Program-made: the position numbers and the translations under genes
Shown here: positions 6,392 through 23,180 of the stretch, piece after piece
Layout: every line of letters begins with the position of its first letter
Position numbering within the stretch: position 1 is the stretch's first letter
The notes under the pieces: generated by a model
Told to the model about the DNA's origin: nothing
The model's database searches: none
Seen by the model: the letters and a program-made list of their open reading frames with translations, nothing else
Origin: a virus
Direction: 5' to 3' (one strand)
Virus record (IMG/VR): IMGVR_UViG_3300032278_000098
Span: 1 to 26,902 of that record
DNA length: 26,902 nt

Positions 6392-6864
6392 TGGCACTAG
6401 TTAAAGCAACATTGTTTAGTGAATTAATGGGAACGTTTGGAGCTCATAGTGCTGATCCAATGAAGCCGGGAAAAGATATTGCAAAAGCATTTGCTAATTA
6501 TTTAAAGATGGGACAAAATGCGGGAGGATTCCCCACAACAAATGTAATAGACACTCCTGCTGGAATGACAATAGGACAGGCTTTCGCATCACAATTACCA
6601 GCGGGAGCGGCAATAGGATCACAGATAGCATCAGCATTAACATCTATGGCAGCAACATATTTGTCTACAAATCAAATTGGACCACCGGCGGTATCACCTT
6701 CTCATACATCGCCGTTAATACAATTATTTTCTTCACCACAACCATCGGGAATGAATTTTTCAAAAGAGTTGGCAGACATATTAGACGCATGGACAAAAAC
6801 ATGGGTAGTAAGTGGGTTGATCCCAGGTGCACCACCAATACCATTTTCAGGACCTTTATCGTAG
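6391..6864 (+). CDS. Small structural or assembly protein of unknown function, 157 aa
   Basis: I do not recognise a named family. The sequence is Ala/Gly/Ser/Pro-rich with a likely helical N-terminal part (about 25-40), an Ala-rich middle (about 60-95), and a C-terminus with WVVSGLIPGAPPIPFSGPLS. The ending, with G.PP..F.G.L spacing, resembles small proteins found near spike genes in other phages. It was considered as a PAAR-type spike tip but has only two histidines, no Cys, and no PAAR motif. It is coupled to the spike gene by TAATG and precedes the 890-residue structural gene by nine bases, so a baseplate role is likely. Confidence 0.8.
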   Translation: MALVKATLFSELMGTFGAHSADPMKPGKDIAKAFANYLKMGQNAGGFPTTNVIDTPAGMTIGQAFASQLPAGAAIGSQIASALTSMAATYLSTNQIGPPAVSPSHTSPLIQLFSSPQPSGMNFSKELADILDAWTKTWVVSGLIPGAPPIPFSGPLS

Positions 6865-6873
6865 GATATAACA

Positions 6874-9546
6874 ATGTCAGGAGCAGTTGATAAAAAAATA
6901 ATTGAAACAAGAGAGGAGTTGGATAATAGTCCATCTACTCATTTATCTGCGAGAACAGGGATCCTTAATTCTGTTACTCTAATAAGAGAATTTTCTGAAA
7001 CACGATTAAATGCACTATGTGAAGCCTTCACAGGAGGGAAAAATGAATCGGGAGTGGCCACGAATATGTCTCTTCACACCGTATGTCAATCGTTGGCCGC
7101 ACAGAGATTAATTTGTTATGGAGCAGGAGCTATAAAGGGTGCTACGCAAGGTATTAAAAAGTTTACCCTTCCAGCTTATCAAACAGTAAATGGTGCACTT
7201 GGTCTTACAGAACCGAATACTTCTTTTATGGGAATTAAGGCTACTGATATTGGCGAAACATTTACTATCAATTTAACAAGTTTGGCTGGAACACAGACAC
7301 AAGGTAGTAATACATTTAGTACTGATGTTCGGGATTATTATCTAGTTAGGTCAAGAGTAACTGGAGAATTAATAGACATTAATGATGATATTACTCCATA
7401 TTCTACACCAGATAGCGATACCGCTTTTGGTAATGCAATTGCTTGGGGTGAAGATGTAGGAAGTGAGGCCGGAACATGGAACGCAGACTTTGCAAAAGCG
7501 AACATTGCTAGTGTAGGATTACAAAGTGAGGGGTTATATAATGAATTACCTACCATGACATTACAAGACCATTTGACACAAGGTAGTAACACTCAGTACA
7601 CTACATTAGGAGCGGCATTCGGCCAGAAGTTTTATTTAAAGAGACATGCTGACTATGTGAACACATTTACTATCATTGGCACAACAACAGTAAATAGTAT
7701 AGAAGTAACAGGAATATCAGACACCGATCTCGCAAAAATTAAATATGGTGATGTGATTAGTGGTTCAGGAATTCCAGATGATAATGTAACAATCGCGGGA
7801 GTAAAAACTACAGATAGTAAAATCAGACTTAGTAATACAGGAATTGCAACCTCTGATGGAACGGTTACTCTTACTGTGAATAGTGTACCATTTGGATATC
7901 AAAAAGATGATATATTTTGTCAGATAGAAGTAGTCGGTGAAGGATTAGTAATAAATCAAGATTGGAAGCCAGTTGGTGATGACGCTGGAGGTTATGGTGG
8001 AACAGATGCAGGATCAGATGATTTATTAAATGCAAATACTTCTCAATTTATAGGATTAATGGGTTTCTTTGATCCAAATAATGGAAGTGCTAATGCAACG
8101 AATGATTTAACAAAAGGAGCAAGAGGTGATTGGGTTTCTGAAGGAAAAGAATACGGAGGAACTTCATATCCTTACATAGAACGAAACCCATTCTTTCCAG
8201 CAATAGGAGGAACACAAAAAGCGTATGCAGTAGATAATGGTGAAATTGTAGGAACACAACCTACAGGATTAGGTGAAGATGATATTCCTTCTGGAAGATA
8301 TGTTAGATGGGATGCAAAAAGAGCAGATGAGACTGGAGCCTTACCAGAACATAGATATAGTACTGATTGCGCTGAAAAATTCTATTATGAACCTCAAGCA
8401 AATGGAGCACTCGCAACGATAGGATCAGCAACTGCTATAGCAAGTCACCCTATGCCAAATACTGCAGAGCCACGTGCAACATTTCCAAGAACAGGTTTGG
8501 GAAGTGTAGTAACATTAGTACGAGCGGATGAAACATTAGCAGCAAGTACAAATGCATCTCAATCGATAGTTCCGCTGGATGATGTAATTACTACTCCCAC
8601 AGCTAATTCTACTACAGGAAGTGTACCGGCTGATACAAATGAATATACTTATAGAGTGAGTAGTGGGATAATTAGGCGGGGAGGGTGGAATGTCGATTAC
8701 ACAGGCCCTACACATAATTCGACTGGTGGAACTACAAACCCTACTGTCGGATTTACTTCTGCTGGAAGAACTGCAATAACTCCAACAGACTATGTTATTG
8801 TAACTAATTATGTATCAAGAAAATTGACAACCGATGGAAGTACAGCCAATGCAGATGTTGCATTTGTAACTGGAGTAATAGATGAATTACAAGGAACTAC
8901 AGCGGGTGGAGCTAAATTTCGTGATCCTATCATGGAAGGAGCATCCACTAAACACATGACTTCTGGTTCAGCGAATGATGCAAGTTTTGATACTTATATT
9001 TGTGCAACTACTGGAACAAATGCACTTGATACTGCATTGGCAGACATAAAATCATCATTAACTGCTTTCTACTCCGCGGCTGGGATGTCTAGTCGTGCTG
9101 ATGGTTGTACTGCAGGATTTGGTGCACCAAGTGGACAGAACAGAGGAACAGCTGCAGATTTTGATAATTTTAGTAGTCAAAATGGTCACGCAAAATGGGT
9201 AACATTTTCTACTGCTTCTGGTACTTTAGTAACTAACTTGGATGCGAGAATTGCGGAAATAGATGCACGTATTGGTAAGCCAACTCGTACTGGATCTCAA
9301 TCAACTGTAAGGGGTACACCACCTGCGATTTATGTGTCTGCAGTCCCCGCAGCAAATACTACTGGTGGTTATGCTCCTTATGGTAGATCAATTTATAATA
9401 GTTGCAATTATTTACTAGGAAAAGATCTTAAATTAATGACACAGTTAATACAAGATATTCAAAGTTTAAGTCAATTGGTTGGTTTAGTAGAAAAGGCTAG
9501 AAACAGATATGAAATTTATAATGGTAGAGCAAAGGAGTATAGCTAA
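6874..9546 (+). CDS. Large baseplate-associated structural protein, 890 aa
   Basis: No T4 counterpart is recognised. In marine T4-like phages a similar large structural protein follows gp5, from memory of the family pattern. The N-terminus (1-110) is mixed helical. Residues about 263-338 form a recurrent phage-surface module: VNSIEVTGIS, YGDVISGSGIPDDNVTIAGV and a Thr-rich strand end. The middle is Gly/Thr/Asn-rich beta-type sequence. Two heptad-like helices appear late (LDTALADIKSSL and LDARIAEIDARI). The last 60 residues are the most distinctive: GRSIYNSCNYLLGKDLKLM, then a Leu/Ile-rich helix and ARNRYEIYNGRAKEY, which looks like an oligomerisation or docking segment. It overlaps the next gene by TAATG. 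The composition suits a virion surface protein; the exact location in the baseplate is inferred only from neighbours. Confidence 0.82.
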   Translation: MSGAVDKKIIETREELDNSPSTHLSARTGILNSVTLIREFSETRLNALCEAFTGGKNESGVATNMSLHTVCQSLAAQRLICYGAGAIKGATQGIKKFTLPAYQTVNGALGLTEPNTSFMGIKATDIGETFTINLTSLAGTQTQGSNTFSTDVRDYYLVRSRVTGELIDINDDITPYSTPDSDTAFGNAIAWGEDVGSEAGTWNADFAKANIASVGLQSEGLYNELPTMTLQDHLTQGSNTQYTTLGAAFGQKFYLKRHADYVNTFTIIGTTTVNSIEVTGISDTDLAKIKYGDVISGSGIPDDNVTIAGVKTTDSKIRLSNTGIATSDGTVTLTVNSVPFGYQKDDIFCQIEVVGEGLVINQDWKPVGDDAGGYGGTDAGSDDLLNANTSQFIGLMGFFDPNNGSANATNDLTKGARGDWVSEGKEYGGTSYPYIERNPFFPAIGGTQKAYAVDNGEIVGTQPTGLGEDDIPSGRYVRWDAKRADETGALPEHRYSTDCAEKFYYEPQANGALATIGSATAIASHPMPNTAEPRATFPRTGLGSVVTLVRADETLAASTNASQSIVPLDDVITTPTANSTTGSVPADTNEYTYRVSSGIIRRGGWNVDYTGPTHNSTGGTTNPTVGFTSAGRTAITPTDYVIVTNYVSRKLTTDGSTANADVAFVTGVIDELQGTTAGGAKFRDPIMEGASTKHMTSGSANDASFDTYICATTGTNALDTALADIKSSLTAFYSAAGMSSRADGCTAGFGAPSGQNRGTAADFDNFSSQNGHAKWVTFSTASGTLVTNLDARIAEIDARIGKPTRTGSQSTVRGTPPAIYVSAVPAANTTGGYAPYGRSIYNSCNYLLGKDLKLMTQLIQDIQSLSQLVGLVEKARNRYEIYNGRAKEYS

Positions 9547-9728
9547 TGGCTGAAGAAAATAAATGGAAAGAAGCAGAATTAAGAAGAGATGATATTAAGA
9601 AATTGTTAGAAAATACTAAACAACTTGCTGGAATGTATTCGGAGATCATGGGAATAAAAAAACAAGCTTGGGAAAATGTATTAAGGGCAAAGATTAGAAA
9701 AGCTGAAAAGGAAAAACAAAATGGCTGA
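9546..9728 (+). CDS. Small charged helical protein, 60 aa
   Basis: This short protein has about one third Lys/Arg/Glu/Asp and is predicted by eye to be almost fully helical, with heptad-like spacing through LRRDDIKKLLENTKQLAGMY and a basic C-terminal tail. It overlaps the upstream gene by TAATG and the downstream gene by eight bases (ATGGCTGA, shared in different frames). The tight overlap on both sides supports it as a real gene. A role as a coiled-coil partner or chaperone of one of the two large neighbours is plausible but not shown. Confidence 0.75.
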   Translation: MAEENKWKEAELRRDDIKKLLENTKQLAGMYSEIMGIKKQAWENVLRAKIRKAEKEKQNG

Positions 9729-11796
9729 ATTTAGTGCACTATTAACGGCGAAGGCCGAATGGAAACCCCATCAGATTGCGAAGGCGGGGGATATTGCATC
9801 GTTAGCGGCCGCAGCCACTACTCTTGCTGAAACTGTTAAAAGTACTCTTTCTCTTGCTAGTGCTGGAATGGAAGTGGTCAAACTTTTAGCCACACTTCAA
9901 AATATTAATCCCCTTTTAGTAGCATTGGAGGCTTTAGCAGATGAAGTACTTAAACAAATTCAAGATTTAAAAGAAGCTGGTTATTGGTACTTATATGTTG
10001 ATCCTTATTATGAAGGAAATGTATCACCAAAACAAAAATATAATTATGGTTTTGAACAATTAAGAAACAAGGCCGGAGAACTAATATGGGAAATGAAAGA
10101 TAGCAAGACAGAACAATGGAAAGATTCTCAGCCTGGTGATCCTGTCCCCACATTAGCACAGATTAATGAGGGAGTGGCAAAACCACATTATGCTTCTCCT
10201 AGAAAACTAATTCCTGGTGGATATGATAGAGACAATCCATTACTAGATCCTCTTAGGAGTCCGAATGAGGGTGGAGCAAGTAAGTTCCCCCAATTTACAG
10301 TAAAAGAAGTAATTACGGAATTTACAAAAGCATTTGATGATGAGGGTGATGTTCCCAGATATAAATTATTGGGAGAGGTTTCTGCTGCACCGAAAGCGGG
10401 GGTAATAGTATATGATACTGATGGTAATGCTTATACAGGATGGGACCCTAAAAAAGATTTTGGATTAGAATTATTCGATAAAGGTAAAGCAAGTGAAGAT
10501 GGTTCAACCGTTAAAAATTATGTGGCGGCAAGAAAGGCTCTTAATTCTAAACAAAGCATAGGTAAACCTAATATTTTAGGAAATACAGAATTTGACGGTG
10601 GGTCTGGAGCAATAGCAATTATTATTGCCTCTGGAGATTTTCAAGAATTTGTTGAAGTTTTTAATAAGTTCTCTCAAATGTTTTCTGATATTCCTGAATT
10701 TGCACCCAACACCGGTCAAAATTTATTAGATTCATTAGAACAGATTATTACTCCAAATCAAGTTACAGTTAAATTGACTCAAGTTGATACTAAGTATCAA
10801 TCGTTTGTAGTGGGTGATATTATAGGAGGAAAAATATATAGTAGTATGGGGGAAATTGCGGAGATCGTTGAAGGTTCTGTAGTTCCAACAGTTATGATAG
10901 GAAGAAAAGCGGTAGCAGATACAGATGATGAGGGATTTATATCAACTACTATGACGGATTATAATATGAATGAAGTTGAAAGATGGATTGATATGGAAGT
11001 AATATTAAATCCAATTAGAAATCTTGATGGATTAAACCCCTGGATTTCTGGTGATATGGTTGTGGAGATGGAACAAAGAGGAACTAGTGGAACTACAGGA
11101 GATGATGTGTTTCCTAATTATGTTTTCAAGGGTGGTGATACTACAGAATTACCAAAAGATCTAAGGATATATCCAAAGGTAGCAATAGTTGCAATGGAAA
11201 AGTTAATGATTCTCCCAGCTTCAACTCCGCCCGATTTTGGAGGAATTCAAATTAAAGATATTGTTCCTGGCTGGGGTGAATTTTTTCAACTATTAGAAAA
11301 TTTTGTATTACAATTAAAGGGGATGATTTCAGATTCGGCAAGTTTTATTCAAGACATGATTGATATGATTAAACAGGTTGAAGCATTTTTACAATATTTG
11401 ATTGATCTTATTGACGAGTTTTTAAAATTTTTTCAAATAACATTACCATCTGCAGGTGTGTATGCCCTTTACATTCCTAATCAAAGTGGGGGTAATGACG
11501 GAATAGTGGCCGAACTTAAATCTGCAAAAGGAATTCCAGATTTAGGATATGCGGCAGGACTATTATTTGTCGGTACAGAGGGGGATAAACTTATTGCAGG
11601 AGGGGGTAGTAAAAACCCAATAGATTTATTAGCACTAGTATTAGGTCTTCTTGATAGCGAGGAGCCGGCCCCAGAAGCCTCCACAACGGCCGCTGATGCC
11701 GCTGCCGCACTTGGTCAAGCAGTTGGCGGTTCTGACAAAGACGAATGGAAAGATAAGAGTACTGGAGATAAACTAGCTTCAATGTTATTCAGATAA
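9721..11796 (+). CDS. Large baseplate-associated structural protein, 691 aa
   Basis: The family is not recognised. The N-terminus (about 20-85) is an Ala/Leu-rich helical stretch, followed by aromatic YWYLYVDPYYEG. The middle (about 215-450) is mixed alpha/beta, with YKLLGEVSAAPKAGVIVYDT and MVVEMEQRG segments. A long hydrophobic, amphipathic helical region lies at about 515-575 (for example QYLIDLIDEFLKFFQI). It is followed by YALYIPNQSGGNDGIV and GYAAGLLFVGTEG, then an Ala-rich tail. The helical region has regular acidic residues, so an oligomer interface is more likely than a membrane span. It closes the first late unit: 47 bases of non-coding DNA with a new promoter motif follow. Structural role is inferred from position, size and lack of enzyme motifs. 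Confidence 0.8.
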   Translation: MAEFSALLTAKAEWKPHQIAKAGDIASLAAAATTLAETVKSTLSLASAGMEVVKLLATLQNINPLLVALEALADEVLKQIQDLKEAGYWYLYVDPYYEGNVSPKQKYNYGFEQLRNKAGELIWEMKDSKTEQWKDSQPGDPVPTLAQINEGVAKPHYASPRKLIPGGYDRDNPLLDPLRSPNEGGASKFPQFTVKEVITEFTKAFDDEGDVPRYKLLGEVSAAPKAGVIVYDTDGNAYTGWDPKKDFGLELFDKGKASEDGSTVKNYVAARKALNSKQSIGKPNILGNTEFDGGSGAIAIIIASGDFQEFVEVFNKFSQMFSDIPEFAPNTGQNLLDSLEQIITPNQVTVKLTQVDTKYQSFVVGDIIGGKIYSSMGEIAEIVEGSVVPTVMIGRKAVADTDDEGFISTTMTDYNMNEVERWIDMEVILNPIRNLDGLNPWISGDMVVEMEQRGTSGTTGDDVFPNYVFKGGDTTELPKDLRIYPKVAIVAMEKLMILPASTPPDFGGIQIKDIVPGWGEFFQLLENFVLQLKGMISDSASFIQDMIDMIKQVEAFLQYLIDLIDEFLKFFQITLPSAGVYALYIPNQSGGNDGIVAELKSAKGIPDLGYAAGLLFVGTEGDKLIAGGGSKNPIDLLALVLGLLDSEEPAPEASTTAADAAAALGQAVGGSDKDEWKDKSTGDKLASMLFR

Positions 11797-12239: not shown

Positions 12240-14117
12240 ATGGCAAGCTCAGCGGGTAAACTTAATATATCAGAATTAGACTTCGCAAAAATTAAAGAAA
12301 ATCTCACAGGATTTTTAACAAGTCAATCTGATTTTGTAGGATATAATTTTAAAGGTTCTTCTTTTGATGTTCTCCTTGACATAATGGCATATAATACTCA
12401 TTATAATTCATATTATGCAAATATGATTGCTAATGAGATGTTCTTAGATTCCGCTTCTCTTAGAAATTCTGTTGTAGCAAGAGCAAAACATCTTGGTTAT
12501 CGGCCCCGTTCTGCACAAGGATCATTGGCCGCAGTTACACTTACTATTACTCCAACCGGCTCTCCTCCTTCTATAAGTATTCCCAAAAATACACAATTTC
12601 AGGCTGAAGTATCGGGTATATCATATATTTGGTGTACTTCTAATTCTCATTCAGTAAACATTAATGCCAATGGTGTTTATACTGTAGATAGTATAGATCT
12701 TAACCAGGGGATACCTTCAACATTTAGATATACAGCAAATACAGGTGATCCAGATCAAAAATATATTCTTCCTAATGCAAATACAGATATAAGTACTTTA
12801 GAAGTTTCTGTTCAAGTATCTGCTAGTGATTCCGAAACAGTAGTATATACAGAAGCTACTGATATCACTACTGTAAACTCTATTTCAACAGTTTATTTTA
12901 TAGATGAAATCGAAGATGGGAAATTTGAAGTTCAATTTGGTGATGGAATATTAGGAAAAATATTAGCAAATGGAAATATTGTTATATTGTCAAGTTTAAC
13001 TTGTGATGCTGATGCGACTAATGGAGCTAAAGCATTTTCGGTTGTGACTGATGTTGGTGGATATTCTAATGTAAAAATAGAAACCACCTCTTCCGCTTCA
13101 GGCGGAGCTGTACCCGCAGATATTGATGAGATTAAATTCAATGCACCCAAAAATTTCGATGCTCAAAATCGATGTGTCACAATTCATGATTATGTAGCTT
13201 TAGTTAAAAGAGATTATGGTGATGCACAAGCAGTTGTTGCTTGGGGTGGAGAAGATGCAGATCCCCCAATTTATGGAAAAGTTTATGTAGCTATTAAACC
13301 AACATCCGGAACAGTTCTTTCAGAAGCTTCTAAAAAGTTCGTTCAAGATGAAATATTGGCAAAAAGAAATATTGTTGGAATTACTCCAGAAGTTGTAGAT
13401 CCGGATTATATGTATTTAAAGGTTAGTAGTACAGTTAAATATGATTCCGGTAAAACTACAAATAGTGCATCAGTACTTAAATCAACAGTAACCACCGCAG
13501 TTACAGATTTTGGAGATACCAATTTAAAAAACTTTGACAAAGGATTTAGATATTCAAAATTAATTCAAGCAATTGATGAAGCAGAAATTTCCGTTAAAAG
13601 TAATCAAACTTCCCTTCAACTAAAAAGATTACTTTATCCATTATTGGGATCGAGTGGAGCCTATACTCTACCATTTTCTAATCAGGTCTATCACCCCTCA
13701 AATACTTTTTGGGGTGCAGTAACTAGTGGAGTATTTGGATATTACGATTCTGCAAATACATTATGGGATGAATGTAGATTACAAGATAATAATGGAACTC
13801 TTGAAGTGTATAGAACTTCAGGAGAAGATCGAATCATTGTTAATAATAATGTAGGAACAATGACTTACCTCACCGGAAAAATGGAACTTAAAGATTATAA
13901 ACCAATCTCTGTAGGTTCTGAAACTACTGGAAATACTACACCATTAGAGTTTTTTGTTACACCATCTTCATCAGATGTTAATCCTCTCAGAGAACAAATT
14001 ATCTTAATCGAATCAGATGATATTACTATTACAATGTTGGATGATGCTGGAACAGGTACGTATGTCGAAGGCACTATAGCAACTACTGATGGTACAACTC
14101 TCTCAACTGGGTATTAA
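12240..14117 (+). CDS. 6: Baseplate wedge protein gp6 (baseplate J-like)
   Basis: This is the main scaffold of the baseplate wedge; dimers of gp6 form the continuous inner ring. It has 625 residues against 660 in T4 gp6. The N-terminus has LNISELDFAKIKENLTGFL, then DFVGYNFKGSSFDVLLDIMA and NEMFLDSASLRNSVVARAK with LGYRPRSA, the classic marine gp6 pattern. Residues about 304-355 carry the J-like core: CVTIHDYVALVKRDYGDAQA, then VVAWGGEDADPPIYGKVYVA. The C-terminal quarter is beta-rich (YPLLGSSGAYTLPF and onwards), with a Thr/Gly-rich end. It lies between gp25 and the gp7-position giant gene. Its stop is followed after two bases by the next start. Confidence 0.94.
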   Translation: MASSAGKLNISELDFAKIKENLTGFLTSQSDFVGYNFKGSSFDVLLDIMAYNTHYNSYYANMIANEMFLDSASLRNSVVARAKHLGYRPRSAQGSLAAVTLTITPTGSPPSISIPKNTQFQAEVSGISYIWCTSNSHSVNINANGVYTVDSIDLNQGIPSTFRYTANTGDPDQKYILPNANTDISTLEVSVQVSASDSETVVYTEATDITTVNSISTVYFIDEIEDGKFEVQFGDGILGKILANGNIVILSSLTCDADATNGAKAFSVVTDVGGYSNVKIETTSSASGGAVPADIDEIKFNAPKNFDAQNRCVTIHDYVALVKRDYGDAQAVVAWGGEDADPPIYGKVYVAIKPTSGTVLSEASKKFVQDEILAKRNIVGITPEVVDPDYMYLKVSSTVKYDSGKTTNSASVLKSTVTTAVTDFGDTNLKNFDKGFRYSKLIQAIDEAEISVKSNQTSLQLKRLLYPLLGSSGAYTLPFSNQVYHPSNTFWGAVTSGVFGYYDSANTLWDECRLQDNNGTLEVYRTSGEDRIIVNNNVGTMTYLTGKMELKDYKPISVGSETTGNTTPLEFFVTPSSSDVNPLREQIILIESDDITITMLDDAGTGTYVEGTIATTDGTTLSTGY

Positions 14118-14119
14118 AC

Positions 14120-17100
14120 GTGGCTGTAGTCAAAGATAAAAAAGATGTATCTGTTTTATTGGAAACTCAGTTACCAGAGTTTATAAACGCCCAACATCCG
14201 AAGTTCAAAAAATTCATAGAAAAATACTATGAATTTATGGAATCCCACCAACTTTATTTTGGCACCTCATTTACATTCAATGATGACAAGCTAGTAGATG
14301 AATCAGATGGTACTAGCTATTTTTTATATGAAGATGGTGTTCGCCTTCAATTAGAGTCTGAACGTGATACGGCCGGTAATGCAAATCTCATGTTCTCACT
14401 TGGAGAAACCCTTACAGGTAATATAAGTGGAGCAACCGCAGTTGTTTCTGGTACAAAAGGTAATACTATTGCTTTTGTAAAATCTTCTAGCGTAGCAGGA
14501 TTTACATACGGAGAAAAACTTACAGGTAGTGTCACCGGTTCATACGGCACTTTAGCAAATGGTATTGTTGATGGAATATTCCCCACAGCCTCAGTAGATT
14601 CTTTTCGTTCAAAAGCACCCGCCGCAGCAATAAGAGAATTATCTTTAGACCAAGATATTGATACTACATCTATTGGTCTTATTGAAGATGCATGGAAAAA
14701 AGAATTTTATACAAATATTCCAACGACAGCAGTTACAGATAGACGACAACTTCTTAAAAGAATGAAGCAGGTCTATAGGTCAAAAGGAAATGAGGCTTCT
14801 TTTAGTTGGTTATTTCAATCATTGTTTAATAAAGAAGATATAGAATTTTATTATCCCAAAACAGATCTATTGAAACTATCTGATGGGAAATGGGCACTTG
14901 ATAAATCAATTAAAATTATAACAGCCGGTGCAAATAATATTAATTTATTCACTGGTAGAAGAATCACGGGTGCACTTTCCAAGTGTACCGCTATGGTGGA
15001 AAAACAACTTACTTCTTTTGCGGGAGCTCTTGAAGTTACTGAATTAACATTATCAGATGTTGTGCAGGGCGTTGTTGACGGAGTATTGTTTTATTTCAAG
15101 CCCGCTGAAGTAATTACATCCGAAACTGATATAGATGGATTATATGCAGAAGCAGTCACATCAGGAATTTTACAAACTGTTACTGTAGATGTTGGTGGAA
15201 CCAACTATGTAGTCGGTGATGAAATTCATGTTGCTGGTGGTGGAGGCCAAGGCGCACGTGCGAGAGTTTCATCTATTTTAGATTCTGTTGTTGAGGGTAT
15301 TGATGTTATAGATTCTGGAGATGGATATGCCGTAGGAGATCAAGTTGACTTTATTAATGATGGAACCGGTGGAAGTGGAGCGGCAGGACAAGTCCAATCA
15401 ATTATTTCTACAGGTGCAATATTAAGAAATACAGATCTCGTATCTGCTTTTCAATTAAAACAAATAGCGGCTTCAGACTATACATCAACACTTATTGGAC
15501 ACAATGCTAATACAGCTTTGTTTGGTAATTCTTCTCTAACATTTTCTGCAGGAATTAAAGCAAGTTCCGCAAAACTTTATGGCTCCACAGGTAACTATGA
15601 TGCTACCTTACATATTCTTGCCGGAGATAGAATTGCGAAGGTCGCAAGTGTAAACACATCAGGCGTAACCCTTACACAATCAGTAAAAACTGTTACTCTT
15701 TCAACGGGCCTCTCTGATAATGAAAAAATAGATATTGTTGGTGGTAAACTTACTTATGCAAACGCGAATACTAATATTGTTACAGGATTTTCCAGTAATA
15801 CTGTTTTACTAGTTAGGGATACTCACACAATTGGAGCGGGTCAAGCATTCACCGTTGATTATGCAAGCAATACTTATTGGGGTACAGTTATTAGTGCCAA
15901 TACTACCGCATTTTTATATTCTGTTGGTTCTTATTATCGTGATAATGACATAGATGCTTTGACTGTACAGAATTTTGTTAATGATGATAACATCATAGTA
16001 TATAATAATAAATTTACTAAATTGGGAGCCGCAGTCGCGGGTTCAGGTGTAGATGCACATAATATGCATAATGGCGTTACCTTTCAAGCTGGTAATACTC
16101 CCGCCGCTGTAACAACTAATACTTTTACTATGGTTGATGCTCATGGTGCATTACCCGATGTAATTGCTGTTTGTAATGGTGCTCTCAATATGACTTCTGT
16201 TGATGTTGGAGCAATTGATACATTTGCACTTACATCAGGTGGAGGTGGATATGAAACATCACCTCCTGTTAGTGTTGCTAATAATTATACTCCAACTTTA
16301 GGAAATGCATTAGATGTAGTAGGTGCTCCTAACGCCTTGCTTAATGTAAATTTACATTCATTTACTTCAGGAACAATTGCACAAGATGGTAATGTAGTCA
16401 CCTTAACTAGTGAAGATTCATTTCCGGATGCGAATTCTGGAGTACTTACACTTACATACGCAAATGGAGCTACAGATAATGTAACTGCAGTTACTAATTC
16501 TACTGTTATTAGAGTAGCTACAGAGAAAATTTTTGGACTTGGTACGGGTGATCTTCCCGATAAGCAAACCTATTCTCTTTCATACATGGCTCTTGCAAAT
16601 AACATCACAAAAAACACTTTACTCTATAATGATGATTATTCTGCAAGGGGAAGAGTTCTTGATTTTATAGACAAGGGAACTTTATCTACCGCCAATCCAT
16701 ACATTGCTAACGGCAACACAACTCTTAGAGTGGATATGACTACCACTCAAGATTTTGGTTCAACAGTAGAACATATATTATTAGAAGAAAAAGATTTTCA
16801 TAATGACAGATATTCCCATGAAAAACTTCTACTTGAATCAGCTACAGTTGGATCTGCTCAAGGTGGAGGTGGTATATTTTTAACAGAAGATTGCGTTGAA
16901 TTCATTATAACAGAAGCAGATGATCTACTTGTTGCAGAAGATGAAACAAGATTTTATACAGAAGCCACAACAGGTGAACGTGTTACCGCACATAGTAATG
17001 TCGTTTCTACATACACCACAGGAACTATGGCTCAATCGGGGACTACAGTTACAGGAGTTGGTACTACATTTCCTAATGACTCGGTTCGTGGAACTATTAC

Positions 17101-20100
17101 ATATCACGATGATGCTACCTCTACAATTACAGGATGGACAAATACCACATCATTCACAGTAGCAGATTCAAAAACAGTAGGCGCGGGTAACACATATTCA
17201 ATTAGTTATAATTCTGCATTGACATGGGGAATAAATCGAGAAGTTACAGCAGCAGGTAGTGGTACAGGAAATAAAACAGTTACCGTAACAGATACAGGAC
17301 ACTATTTAAGATCAGGTGACAAAGTTAAAATTTCTGGATGTACAACTGCACAAGTGAATGGAATATGGCCAATAACTGTTCTAACTTCAAATACCTATAG
17401 TTACACTTTACCTGAAAATGGAGTAGCTTCACCTGCTGGTGAGATTAGATCAATGCCAGTTTCATCCGTATGGCTTGCAACATCTAATGCAGTTTACATG
17501 GATACCTCACCAAAAGGTAATAATGCTGTAATTGAAGTTTCCGCCATTGCAATTGGTGCAATTCAAGCTGCAGAAGTTTATGATTTTGGTGCAGGATATT
17601 CTTCTATTCCAAATCTTTCAACTACTTCTGGTGATCAAAACGCCGAACTTACTGCAGGACTTGGTGCTTATGCAACATATCCTGGATATTATACTGCTAC
17701 AACGGGATTACTTAGTGGTGTACCAAAAATTCAAGACAACAAATACTACCAAGCTTTTTCTTATGTTCTAAAAACTGATTTTGATGTAAACGATTATCGT
17801 AATTCAGTAAAAAGATTGACTCATCCATCCGGCTTAATAATGTTTGGTGAATTGGCTATACGAAGTAAAATATCTGTAGAAATGTTCGATGCGGGAGCAA
17901 GTGGAAATGTTGATAGTTTGGGAACTATTGTAACGGCCGGCCCTGATAATGAAGGAAGAAAATATCACAACATTACTCTGTTCGGTAATACTACTGTTGC
18001 AAATGCACAATTTCAATCTTATGGTAGTAATAATGAGATGGAAATTTATACTGCAAACCATCCGTGGCAAGCGATGGATGCAAGGTTGGAAACATTCGAT
18101 GAAGTAAATCTTCAACTGGAAAATTATGTAGAAATTTCGTCTATAGCACGAACCAATTCTACAATGTATGTAGTTACAGAAACATTACATGGATTAGAAA
18201 CTGGTGATACGATTGAATTTTCTGGGGATGAATCTGGACAACAATTCAATAGCAATTATACTGTTACATCCGCGCCCACTACAAACACATATACTATTAC
18301 TCCATCACCAGATCATGGCTCTGCCGTTTCACAATCCATGTATGACGGATTTCTTTATATTCAGTTAGAAGACCAACAATCTGGAAATAATGTTATTATG
18401 GAAGATGCTTCCGATTTGATGATGGAACCATCAAATTATCTGAAATCTAAAGTAATAGCATATTCAGATGTCTTCCGCGCGAATGCGACAAATTGGGATT
18501 ATCCCTTTGCTGGTGGAATTCTAAATGAAGATGGTACTGAGATTTTACTTGAACGTGGAGGATCTTTTCTCTATCCATCAATTCAATTTCCTGAAGCTGA
18601 GACAGGAGTAATATCCATTGATGTGAGTTTCAATAGTGACATACTCCTTGAAGACGACAATGGAGCTTATGGGTGGGGGTATCTTTTAGATGAAACTTCT
18701 GCGGGACAAGGTAATGGCCCACAAAGATTTATTTCTCTTGAAGAAGATACACAAGGACCGGATCGACAATATGAGAGTATTCCAATTGTAGATACTCATG
18801 TTATTGAAACTTGGTATAATTCAACAGGAAATCATTTAATCGGAGAAGACGACCTAACGCGTTTTATGATGGAAGATGAAGCATTATTGGCCTTAGATAC
18901 TGTACCAATTACACATGATAATCGATTCTGTAAACATATTGATTCACATATAATTTATAATGCAATTATAGCAGAGGACGGTTCGTATATAATCGAAGAA
19001 GGAAGTTCAGGATCAACTAATACTTATTTTTCAGTAGAAGATGAATATGGATTAAATCAAAACGATGAACTTGATTTAATATTTGACCTTTGGGAAAGTA
19101 CACATTGGCATTTACGAATGGAGGATTCATCTCATACCATATATGAAGATGGTACTAGAATGTTGGTAGAGTTTGGATCTGTAAAAGCTCCTTTAGTAGA
19201 ATTAGAAACAGAACATTATGATACAATGGGTTATCATCTAAGAATGGAAGATGAATCTCATCTTATTCATGAAGATACAACGCGTGCGATTATAGAAGAA
19301 GGTCTAGTAAAGGCCGGTAATCATATTGAACAAATACAATATGATCTTTATGAGACAACTTACTGGCATTTGATGCAAGAAGATGGTGTAACACATACCA
19401 AGCTTGAAGATGGAACACGTTTACTTACTGAGAACGTGAATATTAAAGCTACTGAATTGTTACAACCCACAGACAAGAACATCTATAAAGTTGATTCTAT
19501 GGGTCAACATATATTGTTAGAAGATGCGTCGCCGGATCTCACTCCTATTATCTATACTGTAACTGCATCAGGATCTAGCCACTTTTTAATAGACATCGAT
19601 GATGGTAATGGACCCGTAGCCCAGCTTTCAATTACTTTACAGGGAGGTAGAGTTTATCGTTTTGATAATAGTGATTCAACAAATATCGGCCATCCATTTA
19701 AATTTTCTCTAACGTCTGATGGTCATCATGGAGGGGGAACTGCTTATACTGATGGAGTATTAGAAAACGGTACTGCAGGATATGCAGGAGCTTTTGTTCA
19801 AATACACGCAACAAATACAGCGCAAACACTATATTACCATTGTCATGCTCATTCCGGCATGGGTGGAACAGCAAATAAAACCTTATTCAGTTATTCTGAC
19901 TACAATACTTTTATTGCAATGGAAGATGTTCATAAAGCTGTGGGGGATAGTGAGAACCCTAGATTACTTTTAGATCATCCGGAAAATAAAATTCCGGACA
20001 TTACTAAACATTATGTTTCAGAATCCGCGGCGAGTGATTTAATTCATTGGACGCCAGAAAACCATTTATTAAATACTATTTCAACTTATAAAGATAAGTA

Positions 20101-21445
20101 TGTTACAGCAACTTATGGTATGCAACCCTTTAGGCCACATTATGTTTCACAATGGGCTACAGCCGAATTGGGGTTTGTTGATGATAAATTTACACAAGAA
20201 GATGGTTCAGGATTAATAATTTTAGAACATCCTGTAACAAATCAAAACTATTTACTTCATGAAGATTTTCCTGAATTGGGTTTAGATATGATGAACCTTC
20301 AAAGAGAAGTTTTGGATTTCATTTTGTTGGAAGATGTTCTTCAAACCGATGGGGCCATTGATGGTAATAGAAAAGATTATATTCAGACTGAAGAATATGT
20401 AACGTATGTTATAACAGCTTCAGGCACGCCCACATTTATTATTGATGGTGTAGAACAAACATCGTTAACTATTGAAAGAGGGGTCACTATTAGATTTGTT
20501 GTAAGTTCTTCTACGGTGTCATCTCATCCATTTAGACTTTCATCTACTGCAAATGGTACTCATGCTGGTGGAGTAGTACTTGCAGATGCAGGATATGCGC
20601 ACTCTTCGGCTGCTCATGGTAATCCCGGAGCATATGTAGAATATACTCTTACAGGTAGTACACCAGACACAATATATTATTTTTGTACTGCACATAGTGG
20701 AATGGGAGGTTCAGTTACAGTTATTAATAACACAGGAACATCGCGATCATTATTAGAAACATCTAAACCACCAATAGAAGGTTATGGTGTAGAGTTTACA
20801 CCACATCAAACTTGGACTGTTCTTCCCTCATATCAATATAGTAGAATATTAACGCGGATGAAAGGAACAGTTACCATTGCAGATGGCGCCACGGCCATGA
20901 CTGGATCTGGAAGTGAATTTACTTCTCAACTTAAAGTGGGAGATGAATTTCAAACTGCAAATGAAAATATTATATCTGAAGAAACTGGTGGAGGTATATT
21001 ATTAGAAAGTGATGAAAGAATAGAACACGAAGAAGCGCGAATTATTCATGTACAAAATGAGGATCTTGCTGCAGATTTATTAGGAACACAAATTAGAAAC
21101 TTTCGATGGTTGATAACTACAGAAGATACTACTGTTGCCGCACATGGTACACATGCCGGTGTAATAGGAACGTATGGGACTGGTGATCCTGATGCCGAAA
21201 GTTTTAGTATTGTTACGAGTGAAACCAACCAATCCCTTGTAGTTGGATTAGATGCTGAAGTCGGAGAACTTGAACTAGAAACTCCTGAATGGGAACATAT
21301 TAATATGCTCTGGGAAGATATGTCAAAAATGATAATTGTAGATCCACAAGCTTTTATGGTGAAAACTATTACTAATGATGCTTCTTTAGAGGTAACCAGA
21401 AAATGTATGCCGGGTGGAGTAAGCGACTCTGTATATCAACTCTGA
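14120..21445 (+). CDS. Giant baseplate protein in the gp7 position, with two cupredoxin-like domains
   Basis: This 2441-residue protein lies where T4 has gp7 (1032 residues), between gp6 and gp8. The start is GTG at 14120, two bases after gp6; it is preferred because residues 10-44 carry a conserved phage N-terminal pattern (LPEFINAQHPKFKKFIEKYY). Residues about 93-150 are SGA/GE beta repeats. Residues about 219-268 have YRSKGNEASFSWLFQSLFN and LLKLSDGKW, a motif shared with other marine structural proteins. Three copies of one beta module lie at 515-581, 748-822 and 965-1030. KYYQAFSYVLKTDFDVNDY and LTHPSGLIMFGE (about 1201-1240) close the conserved core. The second half is dominated by short hydrophobic-Glu-Asp repeats, with cupredoxin-like domains at 1811-1923 and 2093-2203. 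Likely wedge or fibre-anchor function by position; direct gp7 homology was not tested, hence no symbol. Confidence 0.88.
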   Translation: MAVVKDKKDVSVLLETQLPEFINAQHPKFKKFIEKYYEFMESHQLYFGTSFTFNDDKLVDESDGTSYFLYEDGVRLQLESERDTAGNANLMFSLGETLTGNISGATAVVSGTKGNTIAFVKSSSVAGFTYGEKLTGSVTGSYGTLANGIVDGIFPTASVDSFRSKAPAAAIRELSLDQDIDTTSIGLIEDAWKKEFYTNIPTTAVTDRRQLLKRMKQVYRSKGNEASFSWLFQSLFNKEDIEFYYPKTDLLKLSDGKWALDKSIKIITAGANNINLFTGRRITGALSKCTAMVEKQLTSFAGALEVTELTLSDVVQGVVDGVLFYFKPAEVITSETDIDGLYAEAVTSGILQTVTVDVGGTNYVVGDEIHVAGGGGQGARARVSSILDSVVEGIDVIDSGDGYAVGDQVDFINDGTGGSGAAGQVQSIISTGAILRNTDLVSAFQLKQIAASDYTSTLIGHNANTALFGNSSLTFSAGIKASSAKLYGSTGNYDATLHILAGDRIAKVASVNTSGVTLTQSVKTVTLSTGLSDNEKIDIVGGKLTYANANTNIVTGFSSNTVLLVRDTHTIGAGQAFTVDYASNTYWGTVISANTTAFLYSVGSYYRDNDIDALTVQNFVNDDNIIVYNNKFTKLGAAVAGSGVDAHNMHNGVTFQAGNTPAAVTTNTFTMVDAHGALPDVIAVCNGALNMTSVDVGAIDTFALTSGGGGYETSPPVSVANNYTPTLGNALDVVGAPNALLNVNLHSFTSGTIAQDGNVVTLTSEDSFPDANSGVLTLTYANGATDNVTAVTNSTVIRVATEKIFGLGTGDLPDKQTYSLSYMALANNITKNTLLYNDDYSARGRVLDFIDKGTLSTANPYIANGNTTLRVDMTTTQDFGSTVEHILLEEKDFHNDRYSHEKLLLESATVGSAQGGGGIFLTEDCVEFIITEADDLLVAEDETRFYTEATTGERVTAHSNVVSTYTTGTMAQSGTTVTGVGTTFPNDSVRGTITYHDDATSTITGWTNTTSFTVADSKTVGAGNTYSISYNSALTWGINREVTAAGSGTGNKTVTVTDTGHYLRSGDKVKISGCTTAQVNGIWPITVLTSNTYSYTLPENGVASPAGEIRSMPVSSVWLATSNAVYMDTSPKGNNAVIEVSAIAIGAIQAAEVYDFGAGYSSIPNLSTTSGDQNAELTAGLGAYATYPGYYTATTGLLSGVPKIQDNKYYQAFSYVLKTDFDVNDYRNSVKRLTHPSGLIMFGELAIRSKISVEMFDAGASGNVDSLGTIVTAGPDNEGRKYHNITLFGNTTVANAQFQSYGSNNEMEIYTANHPWQAMDARLETFDEVNLQLENYVEISSIARTNSTMYVVTETLHGLETGDTIEFSGDESGQQFNSNYTVTSAPTTNTYTITPSPDHGSAVSQSMYDGFLYIQLEDQQSGNNVIMEDASDLMMEPSNYLKSKVIAYSDVFRANATNWDYPFAGGILNEDGTEILLERGGSFLYPSIQFPEAETGVISIDVSFNSDILLEDDNGAYGWGYLLDETSAGQGNGPQRFISLEEDTQGPDRQYESIPIVDTHVIETWYNSTGNHLIGEDDLTRFMMEDEALLALDTVPITHDNRFCKHIDSHIIYNAIIAEDGSYIIEEGSSGSTNTYFSVEDEYGLNQNDELDLIFDLWESTHWHLRMEDSSHTIYEDGTRMLVEFGSVKAPLVELETEHYDTMGYHLRMEDESHLIHEDTTRAIIEEGLVKAGNHIEQIQYDLYETTYWHLMQEDGVTHTKLEDGTRLLTENVNIKATELLQPTDKNIYKVDSMGQHILLEDASPDLTPIIYTVTASGSSHFLIDIDDGNGPVAQLSITLQGGRVYRFDNSDSTNIGHPFKFSLTSDGHHGGGTAYTDGVLENGTAGYAGAFVQIHATNTAQTLYYHCHAHSGMGGTANKTLFSYSDYNTFIAMEDVHKAVGDSENPRLLLDHPENKIPDITKHYVSESAASDLIHWTPENHLLNTISTYKDKYVTATYGMQPFRPHYVSQWATAELGFVDDKFTQEDGSGLIILEHPVTNQNYLLHEDFPELGLDMMNLQREVLDFILLEDVLQTDGAIDGNRKDYIQTEEYVTYVITASGTPTFIIDGVEQTSLTIERGVTIRFVVSSSTVSSHPFRLSSTANGTHAGGVVLADAGYAHSSAAHGNPGAYVEYTLTGSTPDTIYYFCTAHSGMGGSVTVINNTGTSRSLLETSKPPIEGYGVEFTPHQTWTVLPSYQYSRILTRMKGTVTIADGATAMTGSGSEFTSQLKVGDEFQTANENIISEETGGGILLESDERIEHEEARIIHVQNEDLAADLLGTQIRNFRWLITTEDTTVAAHGTHAGVIGTYGTGDPDAESFSIVTSETNQSLVVGLDAEVGELELETPEWEHINMLWEDMSKMIIVDPQAFMVKTITNDASLEVTRKCMPGGVSDSVYQL
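15662..17209 (+). repeat. Three dispersed copies of a ~70-residue beta module in the giant protein
   Basis: Copies lie at 15662-15862, 16361-16585 and 17012-17209 (residues 515-581, 748-822, 965-1030). Shared landmarks are a T.A/TQS or AQDG start, a LTYA/ITYH strand, a VTG/VTA turn and a G.G..(Y/F)(S/T)(I/L/V)(S/D)Y end (IGAGQAFTVDY in copy 1, VGAGNTYSISY in copy 3). They are divergent in DNA, so this is old duplication. A related opening (GTVTIADGATAMTGSGSEF) recurs near residue 2250. Confidence 0.6.
18344..19540 (+). repeat. Acidic hydrophobic-Glu-Asp repeat region in the giant protein
   Basis: From about residue 1409 to 1807 the protein repeats short strands such as IQLED, VIMED, ILLER, ILLED, HLIGED, FMMED, IIAED, HLRMED, LLED. 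The last part is more regular: four units start with His in HLRMED (1664), HLRMED (1706), HLMQED (1750) and HILLED (1797), spaced 42, 44 and 47 residues, and two of the units share an EDGTR segment. Similar strands occur earlier (about 884-954) and between and after the cupredoxin-like domains. The pattern suggests stacked beta-strands (solenoid or prism) with an acidic face. Confidence 0.65.
19550..19888 (+). other. Cupredoxin-like domain 1 within the giant protein
   Basis: Residues 1811-1923 read as a small beta-sandwich opening with IIYTVTASGSSHFLIDI. His1858 lies in IGHPFKFS, and a C-terminal loop LYYHCHAHSGMGG gives Cys1908-x2-His1911-x2-Met1914. His, Cys, His and Met in this order are the type 1 copper ligands of plastocyanin-like proteins; the C-x2-H-x2-M spacing equals that of amicyanin. 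His1869, His1870, His1907 and His1909 make this copy notably His-rich. Metal binding is inferred. Confidence 0.7.
20396..20728 (+). other. Cupredoxin-like domain 2 within the giant protein
   Basis: Residues 2093-2203 repeat the plan of domain 1: YVTYVITASGTPTFIIDG, His2136 in SSHPFRLS, a Gly/His-containing middle (ANGTHAGG), and IYYFCTAHSGMGG with Cys2189-x2-His2192-x2-Met2195. The ligand His-to-Cys distance is 53 residues against 50 in domain 1. The two domains are divergent, so the retention of all four ligand positions in both is informative. Confidence 0.7.
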
Positions 21446-21530: not shown

Positions 21531-23180
21531 ATGCCTGCTATAGTAACCAATAAATTCAGAATTCATAACGCCAAACAGTTTGTAGAGGCTTTCGATGAGA
21601 TTTCTACAACTTCTGGCGCTGCAATAACTGATGCAAGTGGGTTACTCAATACTAATATGTACTTATTTATTGGTAAAGTAACCAGCTGGGCGGATGATAC
21701 AGCCCCGCCTACCCCTACCGATTCCGTTTCTAATACGGTCTACAATCATTGGAGAGATATGATTGCAGCCAAGAAAATCGGATCTACGGATGTAAGTCAT
21801 GTAGCACCACGCTATAACTGGACGACAGCATCAAATTATTACGCATATACTCATGCAAATAATGCCCTGTTCGATCAACAATTTTACGTGATGACAGATG
21901 ACTATAATGTTTATAAATGTCTCGCCAACAATCAAGCTGGTGGAGCATCTACGACTAAACCTACTGGAACAGGAACAGCCATTATCACAACAGCTGATAG
22001 TTATAAATGGAAGTTCATGTATCAGATCTCAGCCGCAAGAGCTCTTAAATTTGTAACGCCTAGTTATATACCTACTCAGCGTGTACGTAAAGCAAATAAC
22101 GCGATTGCAAATACTACTGATTCTTCGTTTCAATACGATGTTGAAATTGCAGCAAATACTTCAGGTAATGGAGCCATTGAAGTGGTTCATGTTACAACTG
22201 CTGGAAGTTCTTATACATTCGAAACTGGAACAGTTCAATCAGGACACACAGAAACCACAACTACTTGTAAAATTTCAGGTACAGGTTTGGCTACTGATCA
22301 AATCGTTAACAACGATATTTACTTTACTTCAGACTCCGCAAGTGGTGTTACAGGTAAAGGTGGAACAATTACCGATTTCCAAGCTGGTACTGATGTTGTA
22401 ACTTGGACACCCGCATTAGCAAGTGCTAACGTTCCAGCAGACGGTGACGGATATTCTATCGGTCCTAAAATCACTATTACTGGTGATGGTCATGGAGCAA
22501 ATGTTCGTGCCACTAATACCGCATCTGGTACTATTGGTGATATCGTGGTTGTTGCCGGTGGTAACAATTATGGTAATGCCGTAGCAACGATTATTACAAA
22601 CGCCGGTTCTTCTGGAGCCGTTACACCAATTATCGGCCCACGTGGTGGACATGGTGATGACGCAGTTGAAGAATTAGGTGGATTCTTTGTAATGGTTAAT
22701 AGTCGATTGGAATACGGAGAATCTGGAAACTTCACAACAAATAACGATTTCCGTAAAATCGGTCTTTTAGCTCAACCATTGTATGCCAATGGTGATGTTG
22801 CAACAGCAACAACTATTGATCAATGTGTAACTATAACAGTTCAATCTTGGAACAGTACAGCATTTGCAGAAGATGAACTTGTAACTGCATCACAGTCAGG
22901 CGCAACTGGTAAAGTTGTTGACTTCAAAAATAACACAACTCTAAGATTAGTTGATGTTACTATGGGATCAAACACTACTACTGGATATGATGGTATTGCC
23001 GGATCGTTTCAAGCAAATGAAACTTTTACAGGAGCTGGTGGAGCATCAGCAAATACTAGTGCGGTAGTTGGTGGTGATTTAGAGAAATTTTCTGGAGATG
23101 TTCTCTACATAGAAAATCGTTCACCTGTAACAAGAGCAGATGACCAAATAGAAGATGTTAAGTTAATTATTGAATTCTAA
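21531..23180 (+). CDS. 8: Baseplate wedge protein gp8 with a large insertion
   Basis: This homologue of T4 gp8 (334 residues) is a wedge component that binds gp6, gp7 and gp10. It has 549 residues here. The N-terminus PAIVTNKFRIHNAKQFVEAF, then NMYLFIGKVTSW and PPTPTDSV, matches T4 gp8 (IVTSKFR, FITFGRSEPW, PPYPTDSV). VAPRYNW, YKCLANN and YKWKFMYQI also align. The C-terminus VLYIENRSPVTRADDQIED matches the T4 ending MIYMENRPPI...DQTEEI. Between about residues 215 and 520 an insertion contains beta modules such as GDGHGANVRA, IVVVAGGNNYGNA and DELVTASQSGATGKVV, types common on phage surface proteins; the gp8 motif GFFVMVNSR/FRKIGLLAQPL is split within it. It opens the third late unit. Confidence 0.93.
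   Translation: MPAIVTNKFRIHNAKQFVEAFDEISTTSGAAITDASGLLNTNMYLFIGKVTSWADDTAPPTPTDSVSNTVYNHWRDMIAAKKIGSTDVSHVAPRYNWTTASNYYAYTHANNALFDQQFYVMTDDYNVYKCLANNQAGGASTTKPTGTGTAIITTADSYKWKFMYQISAARALKFVTPSYIPTQRVRKANNAIANTTDSSFQYDVEIAANTSGNGAIEVVHVTTAGSSYTFETGTVQSGHTETTTTCKISGTGLATDQIVNNDIYFTSDSASGVTGKGGTITDFQAGTDVVTWTPALASANVPADGDGYSIGPKITITGDGHGANVRATNTASGTIGDIVVVAGGNNYGNAVATIITNAGSSGAVTPIIGPRGGHGDDAVEELGGFFVMVNSRLEYGESGNFTTNNDFRKIGLLAQPLYANGDVATATTIDQCVTITVQSWNSTAFAEDELVTASQSGATGKVVDFKNNTTLRLVDVTMGSNTTTGYDGIAGSFQANETFTGAGGASANTSAVVGGDLEKFSGDVLYIENRSPVTRADDQIEDVKLIIEF

Follow-up and report, generated by a model that had tools for sequence, protein, structure and literature searches.

Two predicted cupredoxin-like domains with apparent type 1 metal sites in a large baseplate protein of a pelagimyophage-like virus

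The baseplate locus and its carrier protein

The window (the whole stretch of DNA that was analyzed, 26,902 nucleotides from a 26.9-kb virus record) contains a T4-type baseplate cluster, in which one very large open reading frame is flanked by gp6-like and gp8-like genes (Table 1). The 2441-residue product of this frame takes the gp7 position and bears two cupredoxin-like domains, here termed D1 and D2, near its C-terminal end. The protein matches the baseplate wedge subunit PHROG 17744 (E 9e-39). Like T4 gp7, it sits between gp6 and gp8, and it scores above the cut-off of the Pfam family Baseplate_wedge PF23786 (31.6 bits versus 27) over a short stretch only. According to an excerpt of PMC7029224, T4 gp7 is absent from pelagimyophages and cyanomyophages, which have VrlC in its stead.

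When the first 800 residues of the protein were searched, residues ∼11–450 matched proteins of the phages Mosig (Pelagibacter) and Melnitz (Methylophilales) encoded at the same gene place, and residues 11–285 matched the corresponding protein of the Pelagibacter phage HTVC008M; identity to these proteins is 28–32% in this N-terminal part. Because Mosig, Melnitz, and HTVC008M are also the best-ranked named kin of the gp6-like protein (∼39% identity), the window appears, judging from its genes, to belong to a pelagimyophage-like virus. In the gp6–gp8 stretches of HTVC008M and Melnitz, we found no convincing copy of the cupredoxin-like domain (best E 0.006). Mosig carries a copy in a separate tail fiber gene adjoining gp8, and Melnitz carries one in a tail fiber gene away from the gp6–gp8 stretch.

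Around D1 and D2, at residues ∼1414–2300 of the 2441-residue protein, a regular expression picks up ∼19 short motifs of the hydrophobic-Glu-Asp/Glu/Ser type (LLLED, HLRMED, and HLIHED, for example). Elsewhere in the baseplate cluster, at positions 6391–11796 of the window, three open reading frames (157, 890, and 691 amino acids) have no PHROGs match at E 0.001.

Table 1. Genes and domain features of the baseplate locus, in positions of the window
Feature	Position	Strand	Remarks
gp6-like baseplate wedge protein	12240..14117	+	PHROG 219 (E 1e-168); Pfam Gp6-like_1st
2441-residue baseplate protein, gp7 position	14120..21445	+	GTG start
Cupredoxin-like domain D1, as modeled	19535..19903	+	core residues 1811–1923
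D1 first His ligand, H1858	19691..19693	+	from sequence
D1 Cys-x2-His-x2-Met loop, C1908/H1911/M1914	19841..19861	+	from sequence
Cupredoxin-like domain D2, as modeled	20381..20734	+	core residues 2093–2203
D2 first His ligand, H2136	20525..20527	+	from sequence
D2 Cys-x2-His-x2-Met loop, C2189/H2192/M2195	20684..20704	+	from sequence; Cys, His, and Met in plastocyanin register
gp8-like baseplate wedge protein	21531..23180	+	PHROG 438 (E 6e-100); Pfam Phage-Gp8

Ligand residues and predicted fold of D1 and D2

All eight residues that an earlier note on this DNA had named as metal ligands, four in each domain, were found at those places in the sequence. In both domains, a type 1 set (His, Cys, and His plus an axial Met) occupies the canonical positions, as judged by sequence, by the register with plastocyanin, by predicted secondary structure, and by the census of relatives described below. 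The Cys-x2-His-x2-Met motif occurs twice in the 2441-residue protein, whereas its composition (8 Cys, 64 His, and 42 Met) leads one to expect 0.0036 occurrences, and chance was therefore rejected as the source of the motif. In amicyanin, the ligands are His-53, Cys-92, His-95, and Met-98, that is, a Cys-x2-His-x2-Met loop with ∼39 residues from the first His to the Cys. The claim that the spacing equals that of amicyanin thus holds for the loop, but not for the His-to-Cys distance, which is 50 residues in D1 and 53 residues in D2.

D1 and D2 share ∼42% identity over 107–108 columns. In BLAST lists of family segments, with near-copies and the query itself included, D2 ranks 183rd of 298 for D1 and D1 ranks 142nd of 287 for D2. 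These mutual ranks show that the two domains differ at many other positions, a statement that had if anything been too cautious, and they led us to reject a recent tandem duplication of one domain. D1 and D2 represent two old lineages within one protein, each of which has kept the full site.

Structural models of D2 (118 residues) and D1 (123 residues) were built with 40-row family alignments and reached a pTM of 0.80 each, with a pLDDT of 86.8 for D2 and 85.2 for D1. A Foldseek search of the PDB with D2 gave 20 matches at E ≤ 1e-3, including rusticyanin, AcoP, laccase, plastocyanin, CuNiR, and amicyanin. The search with D1 gave a single match at 1e-3, to a laccase; AcoP, laccases, CuNiR, and amicyanin come next, and immunoglobulin-like chains appear in this list from rank 22 on. 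In VIA-align, D2 aligns best with rusticyanin (Z 9.0, rmsd 2.6, 96 residues aligned) and D1 with the cupredoxin part of a nitrite reductase (Z 8.7, rmsd 3.1, 104 residues aligned), where rows within Z 1 of each other count as ties. These scores are modest, and a Z below 8 may reflect a common arrangement alone, which applies to the match of D1 with auracyanin A (Z 7.7, rmsd 2.7, 97 residues aligned) as well as to those with cytochrome oxidase subunit II, SO1698, and EfeO (not type 1), which at Z 7.1–7.8 are tied with blue copper proteins.

Cupredoxins hold the first His just before a strand and the Cys, His, and Met around the loop that joins the last two strands. In the predicted secondary structure, the first His lies directly ahead of strand 51–54, the Cys at the end of strand 97–102, and the second His and the Met in the loop ahead of strand 109–115. 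The proposed check of the fold, by structure prediction and search against copper proteins, accordingly yielded a predicted cupredoxin sandwich and lists led by cupredoxins. D1 and D2 are thus both predicted to form a Greek-key cupredoxin sandwich, which is clearer for D2 than for D1.

Against the Pfam family Copper-bind PF00127, D2 scores 19.1 bits, under the cut-off of 21.2, and D1 is not listed. The sole Pfam family that admits D2 at its cut-off is PF25489 (At5g54830-like; 30.9 bits versus 27), for which we know of no described function. No Pfam family rises above its cut-off for D1, the best being Cu-oxidase_3 (E 0.13), and PF25489 is not listed for this domain at E ≤ 1. PF25489 matches 4 of 21 family members at E 0.01. 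We rejected it as an annotation key because it misses most of the family: matches were found in 2 of 11 genomes or records, above the cut-off in the window only, and in none of 14 control genomes. An excerpt of PMC7029224 names a YHYH domain for pelagimyophage-type phages, and one fold match of D2 in a viral structure library bears this name. The identity was rejected, as Pfam lists YHYH neither for D1 and D2 (E ≤ 1) nor for 21 relatives (E ≤ 0.01).

HMMER aligns the Cys, His, and Met of D2 with those of plastocyanin (E 0.16 for the pair), with a loop two residues shorter in D2 and the first His two columns off. A profile of 21 relatives searched against the PDB met mostly copper proteins, with CuNiR as the best match (E 9e-4), then pseudoazurin (E 4e-3) and plastocyanin (E 5e-3). 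Among the matches listed, 3 of 42 are not copper proteins by name, and the profile meets amicyanins at a weak E of 0.17–0.88. Alignment A1 was picked by hand from 26 rows, five of which were dropped, including two ligand-poor ones (the second copy of locus L012, and L020).

Relatives and retention of the ligand set

The earlier note had supposed that cupredoxin-like sequences of this kind recur in structural proteins of marine phages. Indeed, tblastn against 50,697 phage records found D1 in 273 and D2 in 126 of them. By name, these records are Synechococcus, Prochlorococcus, cyanophage, Pelagibacter, and Methylophilales phages plus a few marine or uncultured ones, and the features under the 50 matches listed per search comprise tail fiber, baseplate wedge-tail fiber connector (gp9), virion structural, minor tail, and hypothetical proteins. 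The viral structure library contains 64 models that match D2 at E ≤ 1e-3; among the 50 of these listed, the named ones are mostly tail fiber, connector, structural, or uncharacterized proteins of marine phages. In gp9 of Syn33 (406 amino acids), the single Cys is the ligand. Among 72,556 plasmid records, there was no D1 match at E 1e-3. Three small β-sandwich proteins of Pithovirus- or Marseillevirus-labeled records (BFVD A0A481Z6J5, A0A481YVH3, and A0A481Z7Q7) also match the fold of D2.

One scan of 84,980 genomes yielded 61 loci in cellular assemblies. Some of them are phage genes by eye, with tail-fiber-like starts in two Pelagibacteraceae loci (L280 and L299) and a baseplate-type start in L318. 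Other loci look cellular. Three from SAR86 (L308, L325, and L313) have signal-peptide and lipobox-like starts, likewise by eye, and in these, as in SAR86 locus L305, the domain lies at or near the C terminus. L308 also encodes a cadherin domain and has a metabolic gene adjoining; L305 and L308 both lie downstream of an aldehyde-dehydrogenase-family gene, which in L305 is preceded by an amino acid kinase gene. In marine group II archaea (Poseidoniales), L294 (4053–5333) encodes a lipoprotein-like protein with a C-terminal copper-type domain, in which Pfam finds collagen repeats and DUF7151. At three cellular loci, none of the 5 neighboring genes scanned is a copper gene. With weak matches counted, a profile match at E ≤ 1e-3 is present in 46 of 81 sampled genomes of the family of L305 and in 12 of 60 of the family of L294. 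Taken together, the relatives appear from their sequences to form one large, mainly marine, modular domain family that is common to phage tail or baseplate proteins and to bacterial and archaeal surface-type proteins.

Three further observations concern the cellular assemblies. Another locus from marine group II archaea (L291, 4140–5171) resembles L294 by eye, being lipoprotein-like with a C-terminal copper-type domain. A Cellvibrionales MAG (L321, 4509–5654) encodes a protein that consists mostly of three domain copies, with a membrane anchor-like stretch at its C terminus. Some weak matches in SAR86, near 636 amino acids, were considered as multicopper oxidases, a reading that we rejected, since Pfam gives a bacterial Ig domain alone in the one tested; such matches are therefore unusable as a positive control.

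In a ligand-blind scan of viral contigs, the ligand-free N-terminal part of the domain served as query, and the best 80 loci (77 distinct) were kept. A His and a downstream C-x2-H-x2-M are present in all 77 distinct loci (60, plus 17 with shorter frames). For the census, a profile with the four ligand columns masked was run over the collected loci, which gave 299 distinct complete domains after exclusion of 7 incomplete segments. All four ligands are present in 289 of these domains; one has Gln in place of Met, nine have at most one ligand, and none has two. The unadjusted output gave 287 domains with four ligands, two with three, and ten with at most one; L166, in which the His is displaced by a two-residue insertion, and L178, which reads C-x2-H-x3-M, were put under four upon reading of the sequence. 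An earlier count of 210 of 215 differs from the present one in that other profiles and other sets of loci were used.

As many as 79 of the 299 domains came from a scan pattern containing Cys, His, and Met, and the cellular loci came mostly from patterns containing some ligands. A less biased subset of 140 domains combines both ligand-free scans with the tblastn isolates and excludes ligand-pattern and cellular-scan loci. Within it, 132 domains have four ligands (111 of 112 from the scans, whose best 80 loci each are close relatives, and 21 of 28 from the isolates, which were chosen by hand, some since their match ended ahead of the Cys), and 8 have at most one. Column shuffling of this subset produced 26.8 partial sites on average (minimum 20), or 14.4 (minimum 10) with the ligand-poor rows collapsed to four lineages and the 132 intact rows left uncollapsed. 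The ligands are thus kept or lost as a unit. This all-or-none pattern, with four ligands in 289 of 299 domains and two in none, supports the proposed selection on the metal site, and the four positions are not free to vary, though nine of the 299 domains lack the site.

The ligand codons of 108 motif-bearing domains show synonymous change (82 TGT and 26 TGC for Cys; 74 CAT and 34 CAC, and 60 CAT and 48 CAC, for the two His), and in 107 of these domains the ligand Cys is the sole Cys. The four ligands are the only invariant columns in the 40-row alignments A4 and A5, whose rows were preselected for the motif, so that we do not count this as evidence. Aromatic and glycine positions near the site are conserved as well, and in phages that infect different hosts a large part of the domain is conserved too, together with its loops.

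The single-ligand change, seen once in the census, replaces the axial Met by Gln in L306, a SAR86 locus from a cellular assembly; the same swap is found in stellacyanin. Among the ligand-poor copies, one clade comprises cyanophage structural proteins from P-RSM4, S-E7, ACG-2014b, and S-SSM4 (loci L020, L356, L358, and L359), with T4-GC 345 in the notes of P-RSM4 and S-E7. Other ligand-poor rows are PSS2 (L353), one of the L184 copies, the second copies of S-H9-2 and Syn33, and a copy from a SAR86 assembly (L332). The cyanophage relatives among these rows, which include the second copies of L016 and L012, have lost the ligands together, and the rest of the domain is still recognizable. In the second copy of S-H9-2 (L012), the C-terminal half may not be the domain, which would perhaps make it a partial copy instead of a loss. 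PSS2 has lost His, Cys, and His and has kept the flanking tyrosines, the Met, and the Gly-Gly, which indicates that the packing around the site can be kept without the ligands.

In a tree based on few columns, with many open forks, without D1 and D2 of the window, and with the cellular locus L347 counted as phage, a single clade (100/100) unites the four cyanophage rows that are poor in ligands, and PSS2 groups with the L184 copy that has likewise lost them (99/86). Rows from phages and from cells are intermingled in this tree, with 16 label changes, at least 7 of which are forced. Because nine of the 299 domains, including the cyanophage structural clade, are without the site, the fold can do without metal, and some virion proteins can dispense with the site. 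Given that a quarter of the isolates are without the site, a metal-free version may be present in many of the phage records that tblastn counted.

A metal-stiffened display module and its alternatives

Conservation across the family and the structural models indicate that D1 and D2 are very probably cupredoxin domains with a type 1 metal site under selection. Copper is probably the metal that this putative site binds in the virion. As to function, for which the earlier note had offered copper-stabilized folding, binding to a copper protein of the host surface, or delivery of copper to the host as candidates, we only tentatively propose a structural or display role, instead of a receptor or redox role. 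Such a use is favored by the many different carrier proteins, the conserved loops, the loss of the site in some lineages, and the reducing compartment in which folding takes place. Somewhat favored as a joint explanation is that cupredoxins with intact type 1 sites, from a mainly marine modular family, take up copper after lysis and serve as metal-stiffened display modules. The domain would fold metal-free in the host cytoplasm, which is scarce in free copper, and would take up copper, or zinc at first, in the lysate or in seawater. The metal might then act as a cross-link that yields a stiff, protease-resistant module where disulfides hardly form, and this module might be shown on the baseplate or fiber to hold or present neighboring parts.

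Alternatively, the site might hold zinc or nothing in the virion, copper never being the working metal and the residues forming a generic metal clamp. The cytoplasm of the host, in which phage proteins fold, withholds copper, and recombinant azurin takes zinc. However, His-Cys-His with Met or Gln is a type 1 copper set and not a typical zinc set, the sole single-ligand change seen is that from Met to Gln, and some relatives resemble outer-surface cell proteins, where copper is within reach, all of which makes the zinc or empty site unlikely. Quite unlikely, too, is the broadest scenario, in which the tails of abundant ocean phages would be copper proteins with a dozen or more type 1 centers, loaded after release and used at the host surface, either for docking on a surface protein that handles copper or binds cupredoxins or as a redox- or copper-sensitive baseplate trigger. 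The domain on lipoprotein-like proteins of SAR86 and archaea would then be the cell-side donor or recipient of the module.

Copper-assisted host engagement, be it by docking on a surface copper protein or cupredoxin-binding protein of the host or by baiting a copper uptake receptor, would suit a domain found in baseplate, gp9-type connector, and tail fiber proteins, all of them parts able to touch the host. We consider it improbable, because domain and loops are conserved across hosts, unlike receptor-binding tips, and because a clade with few ligands has been maintained among structural proteins; a parallel for iron has been proposed with the HxH sites of tail fibers and the Trojan Horse idea (PMC11705849, in an excerpt). 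A redox-active center, scavenging oxidants or triggering a baseplate change by electron transfer, would agree with type 1 sites being electron carriers and with the best fold matches being mostly redox proteins, yet it is very improbable for a domain that occurs in such a variety of virion and surface proteins and has no partner enzyme adjoining in the few neighborhoods scanned. That the residues are kept for packing, with an inherited but idle likeness to a copper site, is hardly credible: conservation does extend to the aromatic and glycine residues surrounding the site, but ligand loss is all-or-none and PSS2 keeps its surrounding residues without His, Cys, and His.

Respiration, photosynthesis, and copper enzymes are the known settings of type 1 copper sites. 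In the open-access literature, with most subscription papers and all preprints outside this scope, we found no description of blue-copper-type domains in phage baseplates or tails. An excerpt of PMC7029224, on pelagimyophages, contains neither “copper” nor “plastocyanin”, and PMC10966104 names copper once, for grids. If the display module indeed carries copper, this metal would join the short list of phage-tail metals, in phages of Prochlorococcus, Synechococcus, Pelagibacter, and Methylophilales, and phage–host contact would become open to simple metal tests, for which the all-or-none loss of ligands provides natural ligand-free control domains. The contribution to the global copper pool would be minor: 1e10 virions per liter with 18 sites each would amount to 0.3 pM, and total seawater copper is roughly nanomolar.

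D1 and D2 share with amicyanin, plastocyanin, and pseudoazurin the predicted cupredoxin sandwich and the order of a His followed by Cys-x2-His-..-Met, but differ from them in the His–Cys distance of 50–53 residues and in the score below the cut-off of PF00127. Plastocyanin is a free carrier, whereas D1 and D2 are parts of a virion protein. Rusticyanin, auracyanin, and AcoP, which serve as redox proteins in respiratory or photosynthetic chains, provide the best single-domain fold matches, yet with 14–28% identity in those rows. The cyanophage plastocyanin petE, a host-type electron carrier at work during infection, is a blue copper protein likewise encoded by marine phages. It is a separate carrier, however, whereas domains of the D1/D2 type are fused into virion structural proteins; petE is listed in an excerpt of PMC3037559. 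Metal sites in phage tail proteins also occur in the HxH tail fibers of T4 (gp37) and of the alterophage R22Y, where iron sits on His pairs of a trimeric fiber, whereas here an entire cupredoxin domain bears a site that includes a Cys. For such HxH iron sites, the excerpt of PMC11705849 also proposes a role in marine metal traffic.
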